Assembly: GCA_903934295.1 (NCBI GenBank)
Contig: CAIZNI010000064.1
Location: 1 to 48,185 of the forward strand
From: an uncultured beta proteobacterium
Lineage (GTDB): Bacteria; Pseudomonadota; Gammaproteobacteria; Burkholderiales; Burkholderiaceae_E
Reading direction: 5' to 3'
DNA: 48,185 nt
The notes under the pieces were generated by a model, which worked only from the letters and a program-made list of their open reading frames with translations, made no database searches and was not told the DNA's origin. Below are positions 3,474 to 35,494 of this stretch, piece after piece. Position 1 is the stretch's first letter; every line of letters begins with the position of its first letter. The translations under genes and the position numbers were made by a program.

Positions 3474-5669
3474 TCACTGGTCTTGCGTCCGTGACTGGCG
3501 AAACCGGCCGAGCGCGTCCAGTGCCTCCTCGAAGGCGAGCCGCCGGGTGGCTCGGGCCACCGGTTCGAAGGAGACCATCATATCGGTGCGGCTCACCAGC
3601 GACTCGATCGATTCGACCACTTGCCGGGCGTTGAGCAGATTGCCTTCGAGCTTGCCGCGCAGGGTTTCCAGCAGGTCGTCCAGTTCGCTTCGATCGATGG
3701 GGTTCGGCAGCGATGCCGGACTTTCGGAGACGGCCGGTAAATCCAGCACCATCCACTGGCGCAGGCACGCCAGCAGTTGCTCCTTGCTGACGGGTTTGGC
3801 GAGCAGATCGGCCATGCCCGCGTCGAGGCAGGCCTGCCGATCGCTCGGCATGGCCGATGCCGAGATCGCAATGATCGGAGGCGCGGAATCGCCCAGCTTG
3901 CCCCGGATCTTGCTGGCGGCCTGCCATCCATCCATGAGGGGCATCTGAAGGTCCATCAGAATCAGGTCGAAACGGTGGTGCGTGATCTGTTCCATCGCCT
4001 GCAAGCCGTCAACGGCGTTGACGACCCGAATCCCGAGCTTCTCGAGCAGCAGTGTCAGCAGGCAGGCGTTATCCGGGTTGTCCTCGACAACCAGAGCCTG
4101 CGCTGCGCGCAGGGCGGTCGTCGGCGGACGGGTCGGGTCCATGTCGGCCTCGGGTCGGTCGGGCGCGTGCAATGATAATCCATGCGCCGTCCTCTCATCG
4201 CCCGGCTCGGCAAGCGGCAGCATCAGCTTCAACCGGAACACGGAGCCCTTGCCCGGCGTGCTCTCAAGCGCGACTTCCCCGCCCATCAGACGCATGAGTT
4301 CACGGGAAATCGACAGGCCCAGGCCGGTGCCGCCGAACCGGCGGGTGATTGAACCGTCTGCCTGGGTGAAGGGCTGAAAGATCCGTTGCGCCTGATCCGC
4401 GGTGACGCCGATCCCGGTGTCGCTAACCGCGATCAGCACCGGGATCCTGCCGTCGCTTGGGACGCCGCCGGTGACCCGGACGCTCACTTCGCCTTGCTGA
4501 GTGAACTTGAGCGCGTTGCCCACAAGGTTCAGCAGCACCTGCCGCAGTCTCAGCGAATCGCCGCACAGCCATTGCGGCAAGGACGGATCGATTTCACGCT
4601 TCAGTGCCAGTCCCTTCTGGGCGAACTGGGGCGCGAAGATGTCCGAAATCCCATCGACCAGCTTGGCCAGCCTGAACGGTTCGCAGACGATCTCCAGGTG
4701 CCCGGCTTCGATCTTCGAATGATCGAGAATGTCGTTCAGGACATCGAGCAGCGCGGTGCTGGCCGACTGCACCTGTTCGATGTATCCGCGCTGCGTGGCG
4801 TCATGACTGATTTCCAGGGCAAGCTCGGCATAGCCGATGATGGCGTTCATCGGCGTGCGGATCTCATGGCTCATGTTCGCCAGAAATATCGACTTCGCCT
4901 CGTTGGCCTCTTCGGCTTTTTTCAGCGCTACCTCGATGAGCGCCTGTTTTTCGAGCGACTCGCCGAGATAGTGGCGCTGCAGGGCTTCCATTCGCGTCAG
5001 GTCGGCGATCTTCGTCTTGATCTCGCGCGTCATCTTGCCGAAGGCGTCGTTCAGCGCCCCGATTTCACCGCTGGTGTGGGTGTCCAGGCGGACATCGTAG
5101 TCGCCGGCCTGAATGCTGCGGCTGGCATTGGCCACCGCTTCGAGCGGGCGCGTCAGCGCGCGCGCCAGCGGGCCCAGCAGCAGCGTGAACAAGCCCAGGG
5201 CGAAGACGCCGATCAGCGCGATCTTGGTGATGATCTGATCGCGGGTCTCCATGAGCGACTCGCGAGACAGACCGAAATCCACCTTGCCCAGGCTTTGTCC
5301 GCTCATCGTGATGTCGGTGGCGAATGCCTGAGAGGCCGATGCCAGGCGCGCCTGCGGCGCCTTTCTCGTCGGATCCTCACCTGCAATCGGGTTGCCGCCG
5401 GCGTCCTGAACACGCAGATGCGTCAGCTCCCCGTCGGCACACAGTTCGGTCAGGATCGCGGCGACCGACGCGTAGTCGCGCTGCGCCATCGGCACCGCGA
5501 GCGCGGCCACCAGCAGCGGCTTGAGCTGGCGGGCGCGCGACTGCAGTTGCGACTCCAGATACACATCGACCAGACTTGCGGTGCTCAGGCCGACGAGCGC
5601 CAGCGTCAGCACCTGGAGTCCGAAGCCCAGCCCGACCAGCCGACCCCGGAAGCTGATGCCACGCCACAT
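3474..5669 (-). CDS. Membrane-bound hybrid sensor histidine kinase (HAMP-HisKA-HATPase-REC)
   Basis: 731 residues. TM1 is near residues 11-33, a periplasmic region of about 110 residues follows, TM2 is near 147-168, then HAMP. HisKA carries H268 in SHEIRTPMNAIIGYAE; HATPase_c has NLVGNALKF, DTGIGV and GGTGLGL; the receiver has D573 in LILMDLQMPLMDG. The last 70 residues form a helical tail that resembles a degenerate Hpt-like region but has no histidine, so the phosphoryl group must leave through another protein. The start is 6 nt after the stop of the PhnD-like binding protein, a strong sign that the periplasmic protein presents ligand to this kinase. The likely partner is the downstream REC-kinase-REC protein. 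Confidence 0.92.
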   Translation of the reverse strand: MWRGISFRGRLVGLGFGLQVLTLALVGLSTASLVDVYLESQLQSRARQLKPLLVAALAVPMAQRDYASVAAILTELCADGELTHLRVQDAGGNPIAGEDPTRKAPQARLASASQAFATDITMSGQSLGKVDFGLSRESLMETRDQIITKIALIGVFALGLFTLLLGPLARALTRPLEAVANASRSIQAGDYDVRLDTHTSGEIGALNDAFGKMTREIKTKIADLTRMEALQRHYLGESLEKQALIEVALKKAEEANEAKSIFLANMSHEIRTPMNAIIGYAELALEISHDATQRGYIEQVQSASTALLDVLNDILDHSKIEAGHLEIVCEPFRLAKLVDGISDIFAPQFAQKGLALKREIDPSLPQWLCGDSLRLRQVLLNLVGNALKFTQQGEVSVRVTGGVPSDGRIPVLIAVSDTGIGVTADQAQRIFQPFTQADGSITRRFGGTGLGLSISRELMRLMGGEVALESTPGKGSVFRLKLMLPLAEPGDERTAHGLSLHAPDRPEADMDPTRPPTTALRAAQALVVEDNPDNACLLTLLLEKLGIRVVNAVDGLQAMEQITHHRFDLILMDLQMPLMDGWQAASKIRGKLGDSAPPIIAISASAMPSDRQACLDAGMADLLAKPVSKEQLLACLRQWMVLDLPAVSESPASLPNPIDRSELDDLLETLRGKLEGNLLNARQVVESIESLVSRTDMMVSFEPVARATRRLAFEEALDALGRFRQSRTQDQ

Positions 5670-21150: not shown

Positions 21151-21240
21151 ATTGGCTGTCAACGACAGGCCTCCGACGTCTCCTCCACCCTCCTCAAAAA
21201 GGTGGATTCAGCCCGATCCCTCCGATCGGGCTTTTTTTTG
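21151..21240 (+). ncRNA. Candidate small RNA with anti-Shine-Dalgarno motifs
   Basis: About 90 nt between a plausible promoter and an intrinsic terminator, with no reading frame of note. Three stem-loops can be drawn. Hairpin 1 is 21154-21171 (CTGTC/GACAG plus an outer GG/CC with one bulge). Hairpin 2 is 21184-21206 (TCCACC/GGTGGA) with an 11-nt loop containing CUCCUC (21190-21195). Hairpin 3 is the terminator at 21210-21232. A second CUCCUCC lies at 21180-21186, just before and into hairpin 2. Exposed C/U-rich anti-SD sequences are typical of sRNAs that block ribosome binding. It lies between OsmC (opposite strand) and the rplM promoter and belongs to neither gene. Confidence 0.55.
21210..21239 (+). 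terminator. Intrinsic terminator of the sRNA candidate
   Basis: A 9-bp stem (21210-21218 with 21224-21232) with a 5-nt loop is followed by an uninterrupted run of T through 21239. It points along the plus strand and lies about 140 nt before the rplM promoter. No protein gene on the plus strand ends upstream of it closer than coq7 (20493). Confidence 0.9.
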
Positions 21241-27947: not shown

Positions 27948-28583
27948 TTGACCGAAGTCGTCCTGATCCGCCACGGCGTGACTCCCTGGAACCGGGAGCA
28001 GCGCTTCCAGGGCAGCATCGACATCGCGCTGGCGCCCGAGGGGCATGTCGAGGCCGGGCTGACTGCCGCCCGGCTGCAGGCAATGGCTGCGGCGCAGCCA
28101 GTGTCGGCACTCTATTGCAGCGAACTCACCCGGGCGCGCCAGACAGCCGAACCGATCGCGCGGGCGCTGGGACTGCCCGCGGTGGTCGAGCCGGGGGTGG
28201 GCGAGCGTCACTACGGCGCTTTCGAAGGGGCGACACCCGAGGATCTCGAGCGCGACTGGGCCGAGCCGTTTCGGCGCTGGCGGGCGCGTGAGCCCGATTT
28301 CGAGTTGCCCGGTGGTGGCGAGACCCTGCGCGCCTTCTACGAGCGGGTGCTGGCGGCGCTCGAGCGCCTGGCGCTGCGGCATCCCGGCGAGCGGGTCGTG
28401 GTGGTCACTCACGGCGGCGTGCTCGATTGCGCCTACCGGATCGCCTCCGGGATGGGTTTGAGCGAGCCCCGCCGGCATGCGCTGCTCAATGCCAGCCTGA
28501 ATACCCTGGTGCGCGAGTCCGCCGGCTGGCGACTGCTGGCCTGGGCCGATGTGGGGCACCTGCCGGCGGGCGATTCGGGCTGA
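27948..28583 (+). CDS. Histidine phosphatase family protein (phosphoglycerate mutase-like)
   Basis: 211 residues, beginning with a TTG codon at 27948; no ATG or GTG occurs in frame before residue 45, and the TTG gives a complete N terminus (MTEVVLIRHGVTPWN). The catalytic RHG motif is at once apparent, with the second catalytic His in VVVVTHGGVLD and the acid in GVGERHYGAFEG. The family covers GpmB-like mutases, phosphosugar and CobC-type phosphatases; the exact substrate is not readable. Last gene of the tyrS-dtd-PEBP run. Confidence 0.9.
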   Translation: MTEVVLIRHGVTPWNREQRFQGSIDIALAPEGHVEAGLTAARLQAMAAAQPVSALYCSELTRARQTAEPIARALGLPAVVEPGVGERHYGAFEGATPEDLERDWAEPFRRWRAREPDFELPGGGETLRAFYERVLAALERLALRHPGERVVVVTHGGVLDCAYRIASGMGLSEPRRHALLNASLNTLVRESAGWRLLAWADVGHLPAGDSG

Positions 28584-28628
28584 AGCTGACCCGGGTCAAG
28601 GCGAGTCACCGCGCGCGGCCGGGCCCAT

Positions 28629-28658
28629 TTGCCCGCACCGGCAGGGCTTCGATACACT
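28629..28658 (+). promoter_or_regulatory. Candidate promoter of glyA
   Basis: TTGCCC (28629-28634) and TACACT (28653-28658) are 18 nt apart and precede the riboswitch aptamer, so the leader RNA would start near 28665, directly at P1. Confidence 0.55.
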
Positions 28659-28666
28659 TCGGGCGT

Positions 28667-28804
28667 CCGCGCAACTGGCGATCAGGTAGAGCACTACCGG
28701 GGAGCGCGGGCCCTCGTGCGCCGATGTGTTCGCATCGGCCATCCCTTCGTGTCTGCCGAGCGCCTGGGCAGCCGTTTCTTTGAATCCATCGGCTGTCGAA
28801 GGAG
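28667..28804 (+). ncRNA. ZTP (pfl motif) riboswitch in the glyA leader
   Basis: The conserved ZTP-aptamer parts occur in order. P1 is CCGCGC (28667-28672) with GCGCGG (28704-28709). ACTGGCG is at 28674-28680. P2 is GGTAG/CTACC (28685-28689 with 28694-28698). CCGGGGAGC is at 28697-28705. A variable linker with a hairpin (28720-28739) follows. P3 is CTGCC/GGCAG (28753-28757 with 28767-28771), whose loop carries CGCC (28761-28764) able to form the pseudoknot with GGCG (28677-28680). The family senses ZTP/ZMP, a signal of 10-formyl-tetrahydrofolate shortage, and usually turns expression on. A competing stem (28769-28774 with 28790-28795) ends just before the GAAGGAG Shine-Dalgarno at 28798-28804, suggesting control of translation. 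Confidence 0.85.
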
Positions 28805-28813
28805 TACCGACCC

Positions 28814-30058
28814 ATGTTTGACCGCAGCAAGACCATCGAGGCCTTTGATCCCGAACTCTGGCGCGCGATCGAGAGCGAGAACCACCGCCAGGAAGCGCAC
28901 ATCGAGCTGATCGCCTCGGAAAACTACGCCAGTCCGGCGGTCATGGCCGCCCAGGGCGGCCAGATGACCAACAAGTATGCCGAGGGCTATCCGGGCAAGC
29001 GTTACTACGGCGGTTGCGAATACGTCGACATCGCCGAACAGCTGGCGATCGACCGGGTGCGCCAGCTCTACGGCGCCGACGCGGCCAATGTGCAGCCGCA
29101 CTCGGGCGCGCAGGCGAACCAGGCGGTCTTTCTCGCCTTCCTGAACCCGGGCGACACCATCATGGGCATGAGCCTGGCCGAAGGCGGCCATCTGACCCAC
29201 GGGATGCCGCTGAACCTGTCGGGCAAGTGGTTCAAGGTGGTGTCCTACGGGCTCGATGCCAATGAAGCCATCGATTACGACGCGATGGAGGCCAAGGCGC
29301 GCGAGCATCGCCCCAAGCTGATCATCGCCGGCGCGTCGGCGTATTCGCTGCGCATCGATTTCGAGCGTTTCGCGAAAGTGGCCCGCGAGGTGGGCGCGAT
29401 CTTCATGGTCGACATGGCGCACTACTCGGGTCTGATCGCCGCCGGCGTCTATCCGAATCCGGTGCCGCACGCGGACATCGTCACCTCGACCACCCACAAG
29501 AGCCTGCGCGGCCCGCGCGGGGGCATCATCCTCATGCGCGCCGAGCACGAGAAGGCGATCAATTCGGCCGTCTTTCCCGGTCTGCAGGGCGGCCCGCTGA
29601 TGCATGTGATCGCCGCCAAGGCGGTGGCCTTCAAGGAGGCGCTGCAGCCCGACTTCAAGGTCTATCAGACCCAGGTGCTGGCCAATGCCGATGCGCTGGC
29701 GCGCACCCTGATCGAGCGCGGCCTGCGGATCGTTTCCGGGCGCACCGAGAGCCATGTGATGCTGGTCGATCTGCGCGCCAAGCGCATCACCGGCAAGCTG
29801 GCCGAGGTGGTGCTGGGCAGCGCGCACATCACCTGCAACAAGAACGCGATCCCCAACGATCCCGAGAAGCCGTTCGTCACCAGCGGGATCCGGCTCGGCT
29901 CGCCGGCAATGACCACCCGGGGCTTCGGGGTTGCCGAATCGGTCAAGGTGGGTCACCTGATCGCCGATGTGCTGGATGCCCCCGAGGATGCCGGCCGCAT
30001 CGCTGCGGTTCGTGCGCAGGTGGCCGAGCTGACCGCGCGCTTCCCGGTCTATCGTTGA
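28814..30058 (+). CDS. glyA: Serine hydroxymethyltransferase
   Basis: 414 residues. PLP-enzyme landmarks: [57 protein letters not shown] and the Schiff-base K229 in [14 protein letters not shown]. It interconverts serine plus tetrahydrofolate with glycine plus 5,10-methylene-tetrahydrofolate, the main one-carbon source. A ZTP riboswitch and a GAAGGAG Shine-Dalgarno precede it, tying expression to folate status. nrdR follows after 53 nt. Confidence 0.98.
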
Positions 30059-30602: not shown

Positions 30603-32402
30603 TCAGGCGCCTGACGCGCCCAGCGTTTTGATCGCGTTCTGGCGGATCTGCTCGAGCGTGAGGTTCGGTGTGATCGCCTGCGGATCGATTTTCAGGTGCA
30701 GCAGCGCCGGGCGATGCTCGTCGCGAGCCACCGCCAGGGCGCGCGTCAGCGCCGGGCCGAACTGTTCGGTGGTGTCGATCCGCTCGCCGTGGCAGCCGAA
30801 GGCTTGCGCGAATTTGACGAAATCCGGGTTGGACAGATCGCTGCCCAGGACGCGACCGGGGTATTCGCGCTCCTGGTGCATGCGGATGGTTCCGTACATC
30901 CCGTTGTCGAACACGATCACCACCAGGCCCGCCTGGTAGCGCACCGCGGTGGCCAGTTCCTGGCCGGTCATCAGGAAGTCGCCGTCGCCGGCAAAGCAGA
31001 TCACGCAGCGCTCGGGCTGGGCGATGGCCGCCGCGACGGCAGCCGGCACGCCCATGCCCATCGCGCCGGAGGTCGGCGCCAGCTGCGAGCGGGTCTGGGC
31101 GCCGCCCGGTGCATCGGCGGGCGCGGGCGTGCCGTCGGGCAGCCGGCGGACTGCGACCGGCGCGTAGCGCCAGAACCGGTGGGCCCAGGTGGCGAAGTTG
31201 CCGGCGCCGTTGGTGATGATGGCGTCGGTCGGCGCCTGTTCGCGCAGGGTCTGGACCACTTGCCAAAGGTCCAGCGCGGGGGCCAGCGTGGCCATTGCGG
31301 GCGGGCGCTGCTGCCACTGCTCATAGTCGGCGCGCGCCTGGCCGACCCGCTCGCGCCAGGCGCTGCTGTCGACCTGCAGTTCGGCCAGGGCCGCCGCGAT
31401 CTCGGGCATGCCGGCATTGATCATCAGCTTGGGCTGGTAGACCCGCCCGAGTTCCTCGGCGCCCGGGTGGACGTGGATCAGCGGCTGAGCGGGCACCGGC
31501 ACCTCGAACAGGCTGTAGCCGGAAGTGGTCATCTCGCCCAGGCGCGCGCCGAGCACCAGGACCAGGTCGGCCTCGCGCACCCGCGCCGCGAGCCGCGGGT
31601 TGATTCCGATCCCGACGTCGCCGGCGTAGTTCGGGTGATGGTTGTCGAACACGTCCTGGGCACGGAAGGACACGCCCACCGGCAGCGCATTGCGTTCGGC
31701 GAAGACGCGCAGCTGGTCGACCGCCTCGGGCGTCCAGCCGCCGCCGCCGGCGATCACGAAGGGCCGCTTCGCCGCGGCGAGCATGTCGCGCACGCGGGCG
31801 ATCTGGGCGGCCGAGGCGCTGGCCCGCACCGGCTGGTACGGGCCGGTGTCGACGACGGTGGCTCGGGCGGTCAGCATGTCCTCGGGCAGGGCGAGCACCA
31901 CCGGACCGGGTCGCCCGCTGGTCGCGGTCTGGAAGGCGTGCAGCAGGTATTCGGGTATCCGGTCGGCGCGGTCGATCTGGGCCACCCACTTGGCCATCTG
32001 GCCGAACATCCGGCGGTAGTCGATTTCCTGGAAGGCTTCGCGCTCGATGAAGTCGTTGCCGACCTGGCCGATCAGCATGATCATCGGCGAGGAGTCCTGG
32101 AAGGCGGTGTGGACACCGATCGCGCCGTTGGTGGCGCCCGGTCCGCGGGTGACCATCAGCACGCCGGGCTTGCCGGTCAGCTTGGCATGGGCGTCAGCCA
32201 TGAAGGAGGCGGCGCCTTCGTGCCGGCAGATGACGAAGCGGATTCGCTCCTGGTGCCGATAGAGCCCGTCGAGCACCGCCAGAAAGCTTTCGCCCGGCAC
32301 CCCGTAGATGCTGTCGACGCCGTGGATGGCCAGGGCATCGGCGAGGATGTGACCGCCGGGGCGTTCGACGAGGGCGGGGGCGGGGGAAGCGGGCTGGGTC
32401 AT
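30603..32402 (-). CDS. Thiamine pyrophosphate-dependent enzyme, acetolactate-synthase-like
   Basis: 599 residues from the ATG at 32402; the frame stays open far upstream, but that part lies antisense to ribD and ribE. Three-domain POX/AHAS architecture: Pyr domain with the catalytic Glu in CRHEGAASFMADA and VTRGPGATNG; central domain with IAGGGGWTPEA; PP domain with the ThDP/metal motif AGDGDFLMTGQEL..DNGMYG. It may be a catabolic 2-oxoacid or acetolactate-type enzyme. No small regulatory subunit is adjacent, so biosynthetic IlvB is less likely. It runs against the surrounding genes, inserted between nrdR and ribD. Confidence 0.9.
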   Translation of the reverse strand: MTQPASPAPALVERPGGHILADALAIHGVDSIYGVPGESFLAVLDGLYRHQERIRFVICRHEGAASFMADAHAKLTGKPGVLMVTRGPGATNGAIGVHTAFQDSSPMIMLIGQVGNDFIEREAFQEIDYRRMFGQMAKWVAQIDRADRIPEYLLHAFQTATSGRPGPVVLALPEDMLTARATVVDTGPYQPVRASASAAQIARVRDMLAAAKRPFVIAGGGGWTPEAVDQLRVFAERNALPVGVSFRAQDVFDNHHPNYAGDVGIGINPRLAARVREADLVLVLGARLGEMTTSGYSLFEVPVPAQPLIHVHPGAEELGRVYQPKLMINAGMPEIAAALAELQVDSSAWRERVGQARADYEQWQQRPPAMATLAPALDLWQVVQTLREQAPTDAIITNGAGNFATWAHRFWRYAPVAVRRLPDGTPAPADAPGGAQTRSQLAPTSGAMGMGVPAAVAAAIAQPERCVICFAGDGDFLMTGQELATAVRYQAGLVVIVFDNGMYGTIRMHQEREYPGRVLGSDLSNPDFVKFAQAFGCHGERIDTTEQFGPALTRALAVARDEHRPALLHLKIDPQAITPNLTLEQIRQNAIKTLGASGA

Positions 32403-32483
32403 GGCATTCGCGGGTCGGGGTCTCGGGTGAGCGCAGTTTAGCGGAGCGCCGACCGGTCGCGCGGCCCGGTGGTTTCGAGCCGG

Positions 32484-32489
32484 TACAAT
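32484..32489 (+). promoter_or_regulatory. -10-like box immediately upstream of ribD
   Basis: TACAAT lies 9 nt before the ribD ATG with no Shine-Dalgarno between, so the transcript may be nearly leaderless. The -35 region is GC-rich and not recognisable. Confidence 0.45.
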
Positions 32490-32498
32490 CGGCCGGCG

Positions 32499-33584
32499 AT
32501 GTTCAACGAAGCCGATCATGACCACATGGCCCACGCGCTGGCGCTGGCCGGGCAGGGTCTGTACACCACCACGCCGAACCCCCGGGTCGGCGCGGTGGTC
32601 GTGCTCGACGGGCAGCGGGTGGGCGAGGGCTGGCACCGGCGCGCCGGCGAGCCCCACGCCGAGGTGCTCGCGCTGGCGCAGGCCGGCGGGCTGGCGCGGG
32701 GCGCCACCGTCTACGTCACGCTCGAACCCTGCAGCCACTTCGGGCGCACCCCGCCCTGCGTGAGGGCGCTGGTCGATGCCGGCGTCGCCCGGGTGGTCGC
32801 CGCGATGGAGGATCCCAATCCGGCGGTCAACGGCCGTGGCCTGGCGATGCTGCGCGAAGCCGGCATCGATGTCCGTTGCGGCCTGTTGCGCCAGCAGGCG
32901 CATGACCTCAACCCGGGTTTCGTCTCGCGGATGGCCCGCGGACTGCCCTGGGTTCGCCTGAAGGCGGCCGCGAGCCTGGATGGGCGAACCGCGCTGCCCG
33001 ATGGGCGCAGCCAGTGGATCACCGGCGCGCCGGCGCGCGCCGACGGGCATCGGTGGCGGGCCCGCGCCTGCGCCATTCTGACCGGCATCGGCACGGTTCG
33101 CGACGACGATCCGCGGATGACGGTGCGTGAGGTCGAGACGCCGCGCCAGCCGTTGCGGGTGCTGGTCGATTCGCGGCTGGAAGTCGACCTCGAAGCCCAG
33201 CTGCTGAAGGGCGGCGCGCTGGTGGTCTGCGCGGTGCGCAACCCCGACAAGGAGCGCGAGCTCGCCGATCGCGGCTGCGAGGTGCTGGTGCTGCCCGGCG
33301 CCGGCGCCAAGGTCGATCTGCCCGGCCTGATGCGCGAGCTGGCCGGGCGCGGGGTCAACGAACTGCATGTCGAGGCGGGTTTCAAGCTCAACGGTTCGCT
33401 GGTGCGCGAAGACTGCGTCGACGAACTGCTGCTCTATCTGGCGCCCAGTCTCCTGGGCGAGGCGGCGGGCCTGTTCGATCTGCCGGCGCCACCCGACCTT
33501 GCGTCGGCGCGACGCCTTGTTTTTCATGCCGTCGACCGGATCGGTGACGACCTGCGCCTGCTGGCGCGTTTTGCGGGGCGCTGA
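32499..33584 (+). CDS. ribD: Bifunctional riboflavin biosynthesis deaminase/reductase RibD
   Basis: 361 residues. The N-terminal cytidine-deaminase-like domain (about 1-145) has the zinc motif HAEV and EPCSHFGRTPPC. The C-terminal reductase (about 146-361) starts at PWVRLKAAASLDGRTAL and has TGIGTVRDDDPRMTVR and HVEAGFKLNGSLV. It carries out the second and third steps of riboflavin synthesis. It is the first of the rib cluster and has a -10-like box 9 nt before its ATG. Confidence 0.97.
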   Translation: MFNEADHDHMAHALALAGQGLYTTTPNPRVGAVVVLDGQRVGEGWHRRAGEPHAEVLALAQAGGLARGATVYVTLEPCSHFGRTPPCVRALVDAGVARVVAAMEDPNPAVNGRGLAMLREAGIDVRCGLLRQQAHDLNPGFVSRMARGLPWVRLKAAASLDGRTALPDGRSQWITGAPARADGHRWRARACAILTGIGTVRDDDPRMTVREVETPRQPLRVLVDSRLEVDLEAQLLKGGALVVCAVRNPDKERELADRGCEVLVLPGAGAKVDLPGLMRELAGRGVNELHVEAGFKLNGSLVREDCVDELLLYLAPSLLGEAAGLFDLPAPPDLASARRLVFHAVDRIGDDLRLLARFAGR

Positions 33585-33629
33585 ACCCGGCCCAGACCGC
33601 CGGTGGCGCACGCGGGAAGGATTGCTTTC

Positions 33630-34253
33630 ATGTTCACCGGAATTGTCGCGGCCGTCGGCCGCATCGAGCGCCATCAGGCGCTGGGCGAGGGTTACCGGCT
33701 GACGGTCCACGCCGGCGGGCTCGATCTCTCGGACGTGGCGATCGGCGATTCGATCGCGATCCAGGGCGCCTGCATGACTGCGGTGTCGGTGGCCGACGGT
33801 CGCTTCGAGGTCGATGTCTCCCGCGAAAGCCTGACCAAGACGTCCGGTCTGGATCGGGAGGGCGAGGTCAATCTCGAGAAGGCGCTGCGGCTGTCCGACC
33901 GGCTGGGCGGGCACCTGGTGTCGGGCCATGTCGATGGCCTGGCCACGGTGGCGCGCTTCGAGGCGATCGCCGAGAGCTGGCTGCTGCAGCTCGCGGTGCC
34001 GGCGCATCTGGCCCGTTATTTCGCCTACAAGGGGTCGGCCACCGTCAACGGCGTCAGTCTCACCGTCAATTCGGTCGTCGACGACGAATCGGGCTGCACC
34101 ATCAGCATCAACCTGATCCCCCACACCATCTCGGTTACCACGCTGCGCCACCTGGGGGTGGGCGACCGGGTGAATCTGGAGGTCGACCTGATCGCCCGCT
34201 ATGTCGAGCGGATGCTGCAGGGCGGACAGGCCGAGCTGCTGCGGCGCGACTGA
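33630..34253 (+). CDS. ribE: Riboflavin synthase, alpha subunit
   Basis: 207 residues with the two tandem lumazine-binding repeats (about 1-95 and 96-195): MFTGIVAAVG, IQGACMTAV, SGHVDGLATV, VNGVSLTVN and INLIPHTI. It dismutates two lumazine molecules to riboflavin. The start at 33630 is set by the invariant MFTGIV and a GGGAAGG Shine-Dalgarno. It follows ribD by 45 nt. Naming varies: the gene is called ribC in some E. coli usage. Confidence 0.97.
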   Translation: MFTGIVAAVGRIERHQALGEGYRLTVHAGGLDLSDVAIGDSIAIQGACMTAVSVADGRFEVDVSRESLTKTSGLDREGEVNLEKALRLSDRLGGHLVSGHVDGLATVARFEAIAESWLLQLAVPAHLARYFAYKGSATVNGVSLTVNSVVDDESGCTISINLIPHTISVTTLRHLGVGDRVNLEVDLIARYVERMLQGGQAELLRRD

Positions 34254-34274
34254 GGGGTGCGCGACCGGCGCCGC

Positions 34275-34306
34275 CGGCAGCGCCGGTTGGGCTGCCGGCG
34301 CTGCCG
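34275..34306 (+). terminator. Large GC-rich stem-loop between ribE and ribBX
   Basis: A perfect 12-bp stem (34275-34286 with 34295-34306) encloses an 8-nt loop. It is not followed by a T tract, so it may be a weak terminator, a processing site or a 3'-end stabiliser for the ribD-ribE mRNA. It is not an FMN riboswitch. Confidence 0.5.
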
Positions 34307-34357
34307 CCGGCGGGCTATTCCGGCACGCTGGCGCCCCGGCGGGCCGTCCCCAGCGGG

Positions 34358-34363
34358 TAGAAT
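34358..34363 (+). promoter_or_regulatory. -10-like box immediately upstream of ribBX
   Basis: TAGAAT lies only 6 nt before the ATG at 34370, the spacing at which RNA polymerase would initiate on or beside the start codon. No clear Shine-Dalgarno or -35 is present. Confidence 0.5.
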
Positions 34364-34369
34364 AGCGGG

Positions 34370-35494
34370 ATGGCACTCTCCTCCATCCCCGAGATCCTGG
34401 CCGAGTTTCGCGCCGGGAGAATGGTCATCCTGATCGATGAAGAAGACCGCGAAAACGAGGGTGACCTCGTTCTGGCGTCCGACTTCGTCACCCCGGATGC
34501 GATCAACTTCATGGCCCGCCACGGGCGCGGCCTCATCTGTCTCACGCTGACCCAGGAACGGTGCCGGCAGCTCTCGCTGCCGCTGATGACCGCGAGCAAC
34601 GGCACGCGCACCGGCACCAACTTCACCATGTCGATCGAGGCTGCCGAGGGCGTCACGACCGGCATCTCGGCGGCCGACCGGGCGCGTACGATCGCGGTGG
34701 CGGTCGCGCGCGACGCCGGCCCCGAGGACATCGTCCAGCCCGGCCATATCTTTCCGATCATGGCCCAGCCCGGCGGCGTGCTGATCCGCGCGGGACACAC
34801 CGAAGCCGGCTGTGACCTCGGCGCGCTGGCGGGCCTCACGCCTTCGTCGGTCATCTGCGAGATCATGAAGGAGGACGGCACCATGGCCCGTCTTCCCGAC
34901 CTGATCGAGTTCGCGGCCGAGCATGGCCTGAAGATCGGCACCATCGCCGATCTGATCGAGTACCGCAGCGGCACCGAAAGCCTGATCGAGCGACTCGCGG
35001 TGCAGTCGATCGAGACCGCCCACGGGTCGTTTACCCTCACCGCCTTCCGGGACAAGCCCGGTGGCCAGCCGCACCTGGCGCTCAGCCTGGGCGACGCGTC
35101 CGATCTGGCCGAGACGCTGGTGCGGGTGCACGAGCCGACCTCGGTCCTCGACCTGCTCGACTCGTCGGCCGGCACGCACTCCTGGAGCATCCCGCGGTCG
35201 CTGGCCGCGATCCGTGCCAACGGGCACGGGGTGCTGGTGATGCTCAATTGCGCGATGCCGGCCGCCGGGCTGTTCGCCCAGTTCGAGACGCTTGCGCGGC
35301 CCCCGGCGGGCGACGCGAAGCGCCAGCAGGCGGGCAAGCTCGACCTTCGAACCTATGGCATCGGCGCGCAGATCCTCAAGAACCTGGGGGTGCGCCGCAT
35401 GCGGCTGTTGTCGCAGCCGCGCAAGATTCCCAGCATGACCGGTTACGACCTGGAAATCATCGGCTTCGAGCCGGGCGAGCGAGGTGATCTGTGA
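34370..35494 (+). CDS. ribBA: DHBP synthase with degenerate GTP cyclohydrolase II domain (RibBX type)
   Basis: 374 residues. The N-terminal 3,4-dihydroxy-2-butanone-4-phosphate synthase domain (about 1-205) is intact: [42 protein letters not shown]. The C-terminal half aligns with GTP cyclohydrolase II ([18 protein letters not shown]) but lacks the three zinc cysteines and the QEGRG motif; its only cysteine is in LNCAMP. It should make the four-carbon unit for lumazine but not open GTP, so a separate ribA elsewhere is expected. Such proteins are known as RibBX in proteobacteria. It overlaps ribH by 4 nt. Confidence 0.95.

Follow-up and report, generated by a model that had tools for sequence, protein, structure and literature searches.

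The window, that is, the whole stretch of 48,185 nucleotides analysed here, carries glyA, the gene of serine hydroxymethyltransferase, preceded by a leader that matches the ZMP/ZTP (pfl) riboswitch aptamer over the full length of the RF01750 model (Table 1). The gene 5' of this leader resembles phosphoglycerate-mutase-like phosphatases, its best match, ribazole_cobC, scoring 117.6 bits, below the cut-off of 162.9; on the other side, glyA is followed by nrdR. The aptamer match, which spans model positions 1–86 with an E value of 2.4e-7, exceeds the gathering score of 39 and is the sole RF01750 match that emerged from the 4.6-Mb genome when 150 of its 1679 first-look candidates were scored. P1, P2, P3 and the conserved blocks are all in place, the pseudoknot between the ACUGGCG block and L3 is assigned by complementarity only, and a one-carbon gene follows on the same strand, its start lying 37 nt past the end of the match. 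The glyA leader of the source bacterium can thus be regarded, by its sequence, as a genuine and intact ZMP/ZTP riboswitch. An earlier reading made from the sequence alone had drawn the aptamer by hand, including P1, P2, the pseudoknot, the linker hairpin and a platform stem, and had named the downstream gene as glyA; all these elements were recovered where it had placed them, and both the covariance search and the protein-family match agree with it.

A sigma-70 consensus scan around the glyA leader returned no promoter site. In all 12 leaders that were printed out, the window's included, a TAnAAT- or TAnACT-like hexamer, counted by eye, ends 15–17 nt before ACTGGCG. Because the putative -10 box of the window, TACACT, occupies this shared position, the glyA transcript probably starts close to the 5' end of the aptamer.

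Table 1. Features of the glyA leader and gene, in window coordinates
Feature	Position	Strand	Basis or remark
Putative -10 box TACACT of the glyA promoter	28653..28658	+	hexamer position common to relatives
ZMP/ZTP riboswitch aptamer RF01750, full-length match	28661..28776	+	cmscan, 59.9 bits
P1 5' strand CCGCGC	28667..28672	+	pairs with 28704–28709
Pseudoknot strand GGCG in the ACTGGCG block	28677..28680	+	complementary to 28761–28764
P2 hairpin GGUAG (28685–28689) / CUACC (28694–28698)	28685..28698	+	
P1 3' strand GCGCGG	28704..28709	+	pairs with 28667–28672
Linker hairpin GCCGAUGU/GCAUCGGC	28720..28739	+	z -2.80 for 28710–28752
P3 5' strand CUGCC	28753..28757	+	RF01750 structure line
Pseudoknot strand CGCC in L3	28761..28764	+	complementary to 28677–28680
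P3 3' strand GGCAG, common to aptamer and platform hairpin	28767..28771	+	RF01750 structure line
Platform hairpin 5' arm GGCAGCCG	28767..28774	+	8 bp with 28790–28797
Platform hairpin 3' arm, P3-competing strand CGGCUGUC	28790..28797	+	8 bp with 28767–28774
Shine-Dalgarno AAGGAG, 9 nt before AUG	28799..28804	+	sequence
glyA, serine hydroxymethyltransferase	28814..30058	+	NCBIfam NF000586, 640.1 bits, cut-off 335

Elsewhere in the window, a Betaproteobacteria toxic small RNA (RF02278) was recognized at 21177–21239 on the forward strand, with 67.2 bits against a cut-off of 50, and no second match came up in the genome among the 150 first-look candidates that were scored out of 208. On the reverse strand, positions 30603–34376 hold an open reading frame of 1257 aa, the C-terminal part of which looks, by eye, like a thiamine-pyrophosphate-dependent enzyme. 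As its first part overlaps ribD and the riboflavin synthase gene of the opposite strand, the gene probably starts a good deal farther downstream.

Within the leader, the hairpin of the linker, described as extra in the sequence-only reading, is real, since only 1 of 200 shuffles of 28710–28752 folded equally well, but it does not distinguish this riboswitch, as the relatives' leaders that were printed have linkers of various lengths and pairings. The competition of the stem of the expression platform with P3 had been seen correctly; the stem itself had been drawn as 6 bp (28769–28774, CAGCCG, with 28790–28795, CGGCUG) ending 2 nt before the Shine-Dalgarno, and proves to be 8 bp long and to end 1 nt upstream of AAGGAG. 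Because it begins at 28767, the stem takes all five residues of the 3' strand of P3, and since both helices use 28767–28771, platform hairpin and P3 are mutually exclusive. When the downstream segment was dinucleotide-shuffled 300 times, no equally stable contiguous helix with the P3 3' strand arose, and the fold of 28766–28798 has a z of -3.36, with 0 of 200 shuffles as good. Terminator-like sites were sought in 28500–28900, and none was found. A pairing of the hairpin loop (28776–28782) with the Shine-Dalgarno region (28797–28803) was considered as well and rejected because it is not conserved, the loops of the relatives L004 and L007, inspected by eye, having no such complement.

It is quite probable, in our judgement, that this arrangement, a ZTP riboswitch with a P3-competing hairpin beside the Shine-Dalgarno, provides ligand-ON translational control of glyA, a reading supported by the compensatory changes in the helix described below, its proximity to the Shine-Dalgarno and the lack of a terminator. 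When ZTP and ZMP are absent, the strand 28790–28797 would capture the 3' strand of P3 (28767–28771), undoing P3 together with the pseudoknot, and the resulting hairpin of 8 bp, on the 5' side of the Shine-Dalgarno and 1 nt away from it, would hinder loading of the 30S subunit. When 10-formyl-THF runs short, ZMP and ZTP would build up and join P1/P2 with P3 through the pseudoknot; 28790–28797 would then be kept from the hairpin, the site would open and more GlyA would be made. The extra GlyA would load one-carbon units onto THF. From the sequence and its comparison we infer ligand binding, the ON direction, the effect on ribosome loading and the order of events during transcription, and likewise control of glyA by ZTP in the source organism. 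The ON direction is read from the competition for P3, and it agrees with accessible portions of two papers: the one in which the pfl motif was discovered, linked to glyA and predicted to be ON (PMC2864571), and one on Cupriavidus metallidurans, in which a pfl-glyA-lacZ operon fusion went up with trimethoprim and did not respond to sulfonamide (PMC10882993). A tandem ZTP pair before moeA has been predicted, in the available text of PMC9481103, to be OFF, and ON is therefore not universal in the ZTP class.

Computed energetics give a mixed picture of the two states. With P1 and P2 constrained to form, the hairpin state is more stable by 4.5 kcal/mol, a figure that leaves out the energies of ligand and pseudoknot. 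In the unconstrained fold, the platform hairpin reaches 0.993 and P1 only 0.006, a value that makes the limits of that calculation evident. Opening of 28799–28816 costs 4.8 kcal/mol in the aptamer state versus 6.7 with the hairpin (3' end at 28830), and over three footprints and three 3' ends, the cost with the hairpin enforced minus that with the aptamer enforced ranges from -0.1 to +2.9 kcal/mol. For the Shine-Dalgarno alone, however, the opening cost is lower by 0.5–1.1 kcal/mol in the apo ensemble than in the aptamer state. When P3 is enforced, moreover, an alternative local fold of 28792–28825 pairs much of the Shine-Dalgarno region. With opening costs so mixed in size and direction, thermodynamics was discarded as a proof of Shine-Dalgarno masking, and the translational reading is drawn from position and comparison, not from computed accessibility.

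Structure immediately 5' of a Shine-Dalgarno may be tolerated, and the aptamer might be functional while the 8-bp hairpin does not block ribosomes, any control being exerted through another pairing. The Shine-Dalgarno itself lies outside the platform hairpin, a fact that speaks against translational gating and for this alternative, as do the mixed opening costs and the fold of 28792–28825. We nevertheless hold it to be decidedly unlikely, because the helix has been kept up by compensatory change at 1–5 nt from the Shine-Dalgarno in 17 leaders of three types (A, B and C), one of which, L008, has one mismatch.

These types were defined among leaders with both conserved blocks upstream of glyA, of which 46 were gathered and 32 are distinct; L005 comes from the order, outside the family, L001 and L109 are the window itself, and L016 and L008, which share one leader, were counted as one genome. 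The type A helix, GGCAGCCG/CGGCUGUC, occurs in L001 and L007 of the window's genus and in L004 of another genus. At the same place, five leaders of the window's genus have the type B helix GCGUAG/CUACGC, the mismatch of L008 being internal, and nine leaders of genus g15 have the type C helix GCAGU/ACUGC. Between types, both sides are changed at four of the six tabulated pairs (70, 71, 72 and 73; 17 leaders), with one broken cell at pair 72 and two at pair 73. When each arm was paired with its own segment, the total over the 17 leaders beat 2000 of 2000 permutations; with L011, L106 and L107 of genus g15 added, which keep the downstream ACUGC and have a P3-arm partner that no longer matches, the observed sum was reached by 1 of 2000. 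The discrimination is mainly that of type A from type B, and type C arms pair slightly better with type A segments (-7.9) than with their own (-6.7). Because the groups A, B, C and C2 were defined after the arms had been inspected and the leaders are related to one another, neither the permutation nor the shuffle counts are probabilities. Among the 32 distinct leaders, 20 have a P3 3' arm that forms 5 bp or more with the 16 nt preceding the Shine-Dalgarno, versus 7.4 expected when those 16 nt are mononucleotide-shuffled. The other 12 are without a 5-bp helix there, which tells against the translational reading; for L108 and L138, a 5-bp helix is expected by chance half the time or more.

The aptamer itself is widespread upstream of glyA, within the window's family as well as beyond it. 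In the family, RF01750 was matched at E <= 0.001 in 27 of 74 genomes and above the cut-off in 24 of 74, part of the candidates having been scored, and every one of the 28 loci from the RF01750 genome searches contains glyA. In the window's genus, both blocks stand upstream of glyA in 7 of 10 genomes, three of these without an RF01750 match, and both are absent in L127; the other two genomes, G002 and G005, gave partial glyA matches only. The absence of an Rfam match was rejected as a sign of aptamer loss for L115, L123 and L125 (genomes G003, G001 and G007), which have both blocks. The notion that the aptamer of the window is decayed or a chance resemblance, giving no ligand response, is highly improbable: nothing positive speaks for it, and the most that can be said is that several glyA leaders of the family are without an aptamer, so that loss is possible in the family. 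Against it stand the score of 59.9 bits and the intact blocks, and the leaders of the same genus, whose P2 and linker vary while the conserved blocks are kept.

Variation of the aptamer takes several forms. In L008, L015, L115, L123, L125 and the leaders of genus g15, P2 is followed by GUGAA(G/A/U)CGCGG or a similar sequence in place of GGGGAGCGCGG, and such a block is present in some Paraburkholderia loci too. For L013 and L014, the Rfam match sets the 3' half too early, and the CGCCTGGGCATCG block is found 3' of the end of that match. Within the same family, both blocks are absent within 230 nt of glyA in L113, L114, L117, L121, L127, L131–L134 and L136; judging by such leaders, the riboswitch is lost or was never gained there.

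For a wider view, named genomes were scanned with the GlyA protein, and the best 80 loci of at least 596 matches were taken. By title they are mostly Burkholderiales; some carry no label beyond beta- or pseudomonadotal bacterium, and L034 and L081 belong to the Zoogloeaceae kind. RF01750 lies above the cut-off, upstream of glyA and on the same strand, in 50 of these best 80 loci (7, 13, 15 and 15 per 20). The 30 loci without a match comprise 9 with both conserved blocks, L072 with a variant, and 20 without the blocks within 260 nt.

In sister clades, the competing strand is found at other places. Of the 50 named loci with a match, 28 have CUGCC, complementary to the P3 3' strand GGCAG, ending 0–6 nt ahead of the start codon, and in 26 of these 28 it is fused to the GG(A) of the Shine-Dalgarno; L039, one of the 28, has GGCAC as its P3 strand, and just 4 bp form. 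Singly, the helices of these 28 loci do not stand out, a fraction of 0.01–0.61 of 300 shuffles having done equally well, and the argument from CUGCC is one of repeated position, not of the stability of a single helix. The motif stands before the start in 7 of the 9 loci with both blocks and no match, and in 0 of the 20 loci without blocks. It cannot serve as proof alone, because L113, L114 and L134 have it directly before the start codon in spite of lacking the aptamer blocks, where it may be a relic or a coincidence. The Comamonadaceae-type glyA leaders (Variovorax, Polaromonas, Acidovorax and others by title) resemble the window in having a complement of the P3 3' strand at the ribosome-binding region, and differ from it in that their competing CUGCC lies between Shine-Dalgarno and start codon, whereas that of the window lies upstream of the Shine-Dalgarno.

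A further 15 of the 50 loci, with titles such as Collimonas, Herbaspirillum, Herminiimonas, Paraburkholderia and Caballeronia, have GGCUG[CU]C 61–148 nt before the start. The 7-bp helix GGCAGCC/GGCUGCC is perfect in L021, L055, L056 and L059, and runs of 5–8 T begin 8–10 nt after it, followed by a shared GGCC(C)UCA stretch; this is not a canonical terminator. Among the last 7 loci, one, L016, belongs to type B of the window's genus; none of these arrangements is seen in the other 6, which include four Cupriavidus. In Herbaspirillum sp. alder98 (L073), a 6S RNA was noted a few hundred bases downstream of glyA, at 4421–4598 on the reverse strand.

It is also conceivable that the same aptamer and hairpin control glyA through transcription or mRNA decay, by way of Rho or RNase E, the hairpin and a lowered translation having only an indirect part. 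The ZTP riboswitches studied in detail act, as far as the accessible texts describe them, on transcription termination, for some ZMP-ZTP loci RNA-seq coverage speaks for termination (PMC12121620, in part), and the glyA-lacZ construct of Cupriavidus metallidurans that responds to trimethoprim is an operon fusion (PMC10882993). The other Cupriavidus leaders that were fetched are without a platform of the window's type. What weighs against such a mode is the lack of terminator-like sites in 28500–28900 and the location of the Comamonadaceae-type competing strand between Shine-Dalgarno and start, a position that is sensible for translation; we consider it unlikely. The preference of the sequence-only reading for translational over transcriptional control is supported by the comparative evidence and by the missing terminator. 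A broader proposal, plausible and put forward tentatively, sees the ZTP riboswitches before glyA in Burkholderiales as a natural series, a single aptamer having been connected with the ribosome-binding region in two or more different manners. The strand that competes with P3 would lie either 5' of the Shine-Dalgarno, as in the window's genus and its relatives, where the whole helix is rewritten between species, or in the spacer between Shine-Dalgarno and AUG, as in the Comamonadaceae type; the 5'-side form would be translational, gating ribosomes without burying the Shine-Dalgarno.

Riboswitches that act at the ribosome-binding region are an established kind, as are glyA ZTP switches in this lineage, and the description of the expression platform as the new part was overstated. 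Kim et al. 2015 reportedly validated the ZTP class and would be the likely place for any list of translational ZTP platforms. No description of such a platform was found in the accessible parts of the literature searched, which Kim et al. 2015 lies outside, and unpublished status is not claimed. The ribosome-site kind is named in the available text of a 2026 covariation study, which searched a ZTP model built from 187 predicted terminator-bearing sequences against 3458 family sequences (PMC13273304). The class, the glyA target and the lineage are already in print, in the portions seen of PMC2864571, PMC7011215 and PMC10882993: Herbaspirillum seropedicae, for which a glyA-linked ZTP riboswitch is listed (PMC7011215), and Cupriavidus metallidurans (PMC10882993) share with the window the lineage, the target and the riboswitch upstream of it. 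In one other Herbaspirillum and four other Cupriavidus loci, the distance from aptamer match to start is 134–227 nt, versus 37 in the window, and the best P3-arm helix ends 111–153 nt before the start. With RF01750 at large, the window has in common the aptamer architecture, the pseudoknot, the blocks, a one-carbon target and a platform in competition with P3 for its 3' strand. The ZTP switches of Fusobacterium ulcerans and Clostridium beijerinckii, as described in the accessible texts, end in an intrinsic terminator, whereas here none was found and the hairpin abuts the Shine-Dalgarno.

A glyA ZTP riboswitch is, judging from these leaders, ordinary for the lineage, and it is the switching helix that is evolutionarily rewritten. 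The ligand known for the ZTP class is left unchanged by the present findings. Detailed work on ZTP switching, so far as the available texts go, used terminator-type platforms, and the compact glyA leader of apparently translational type contrasts with these; its relatives, with helices replaced wholesale, offer natural variants for the coupling of an aptamer to ribosome loading. For the organism itself, the prediction is that folate stress would raise the serine-to-glycine one-carbon flux.
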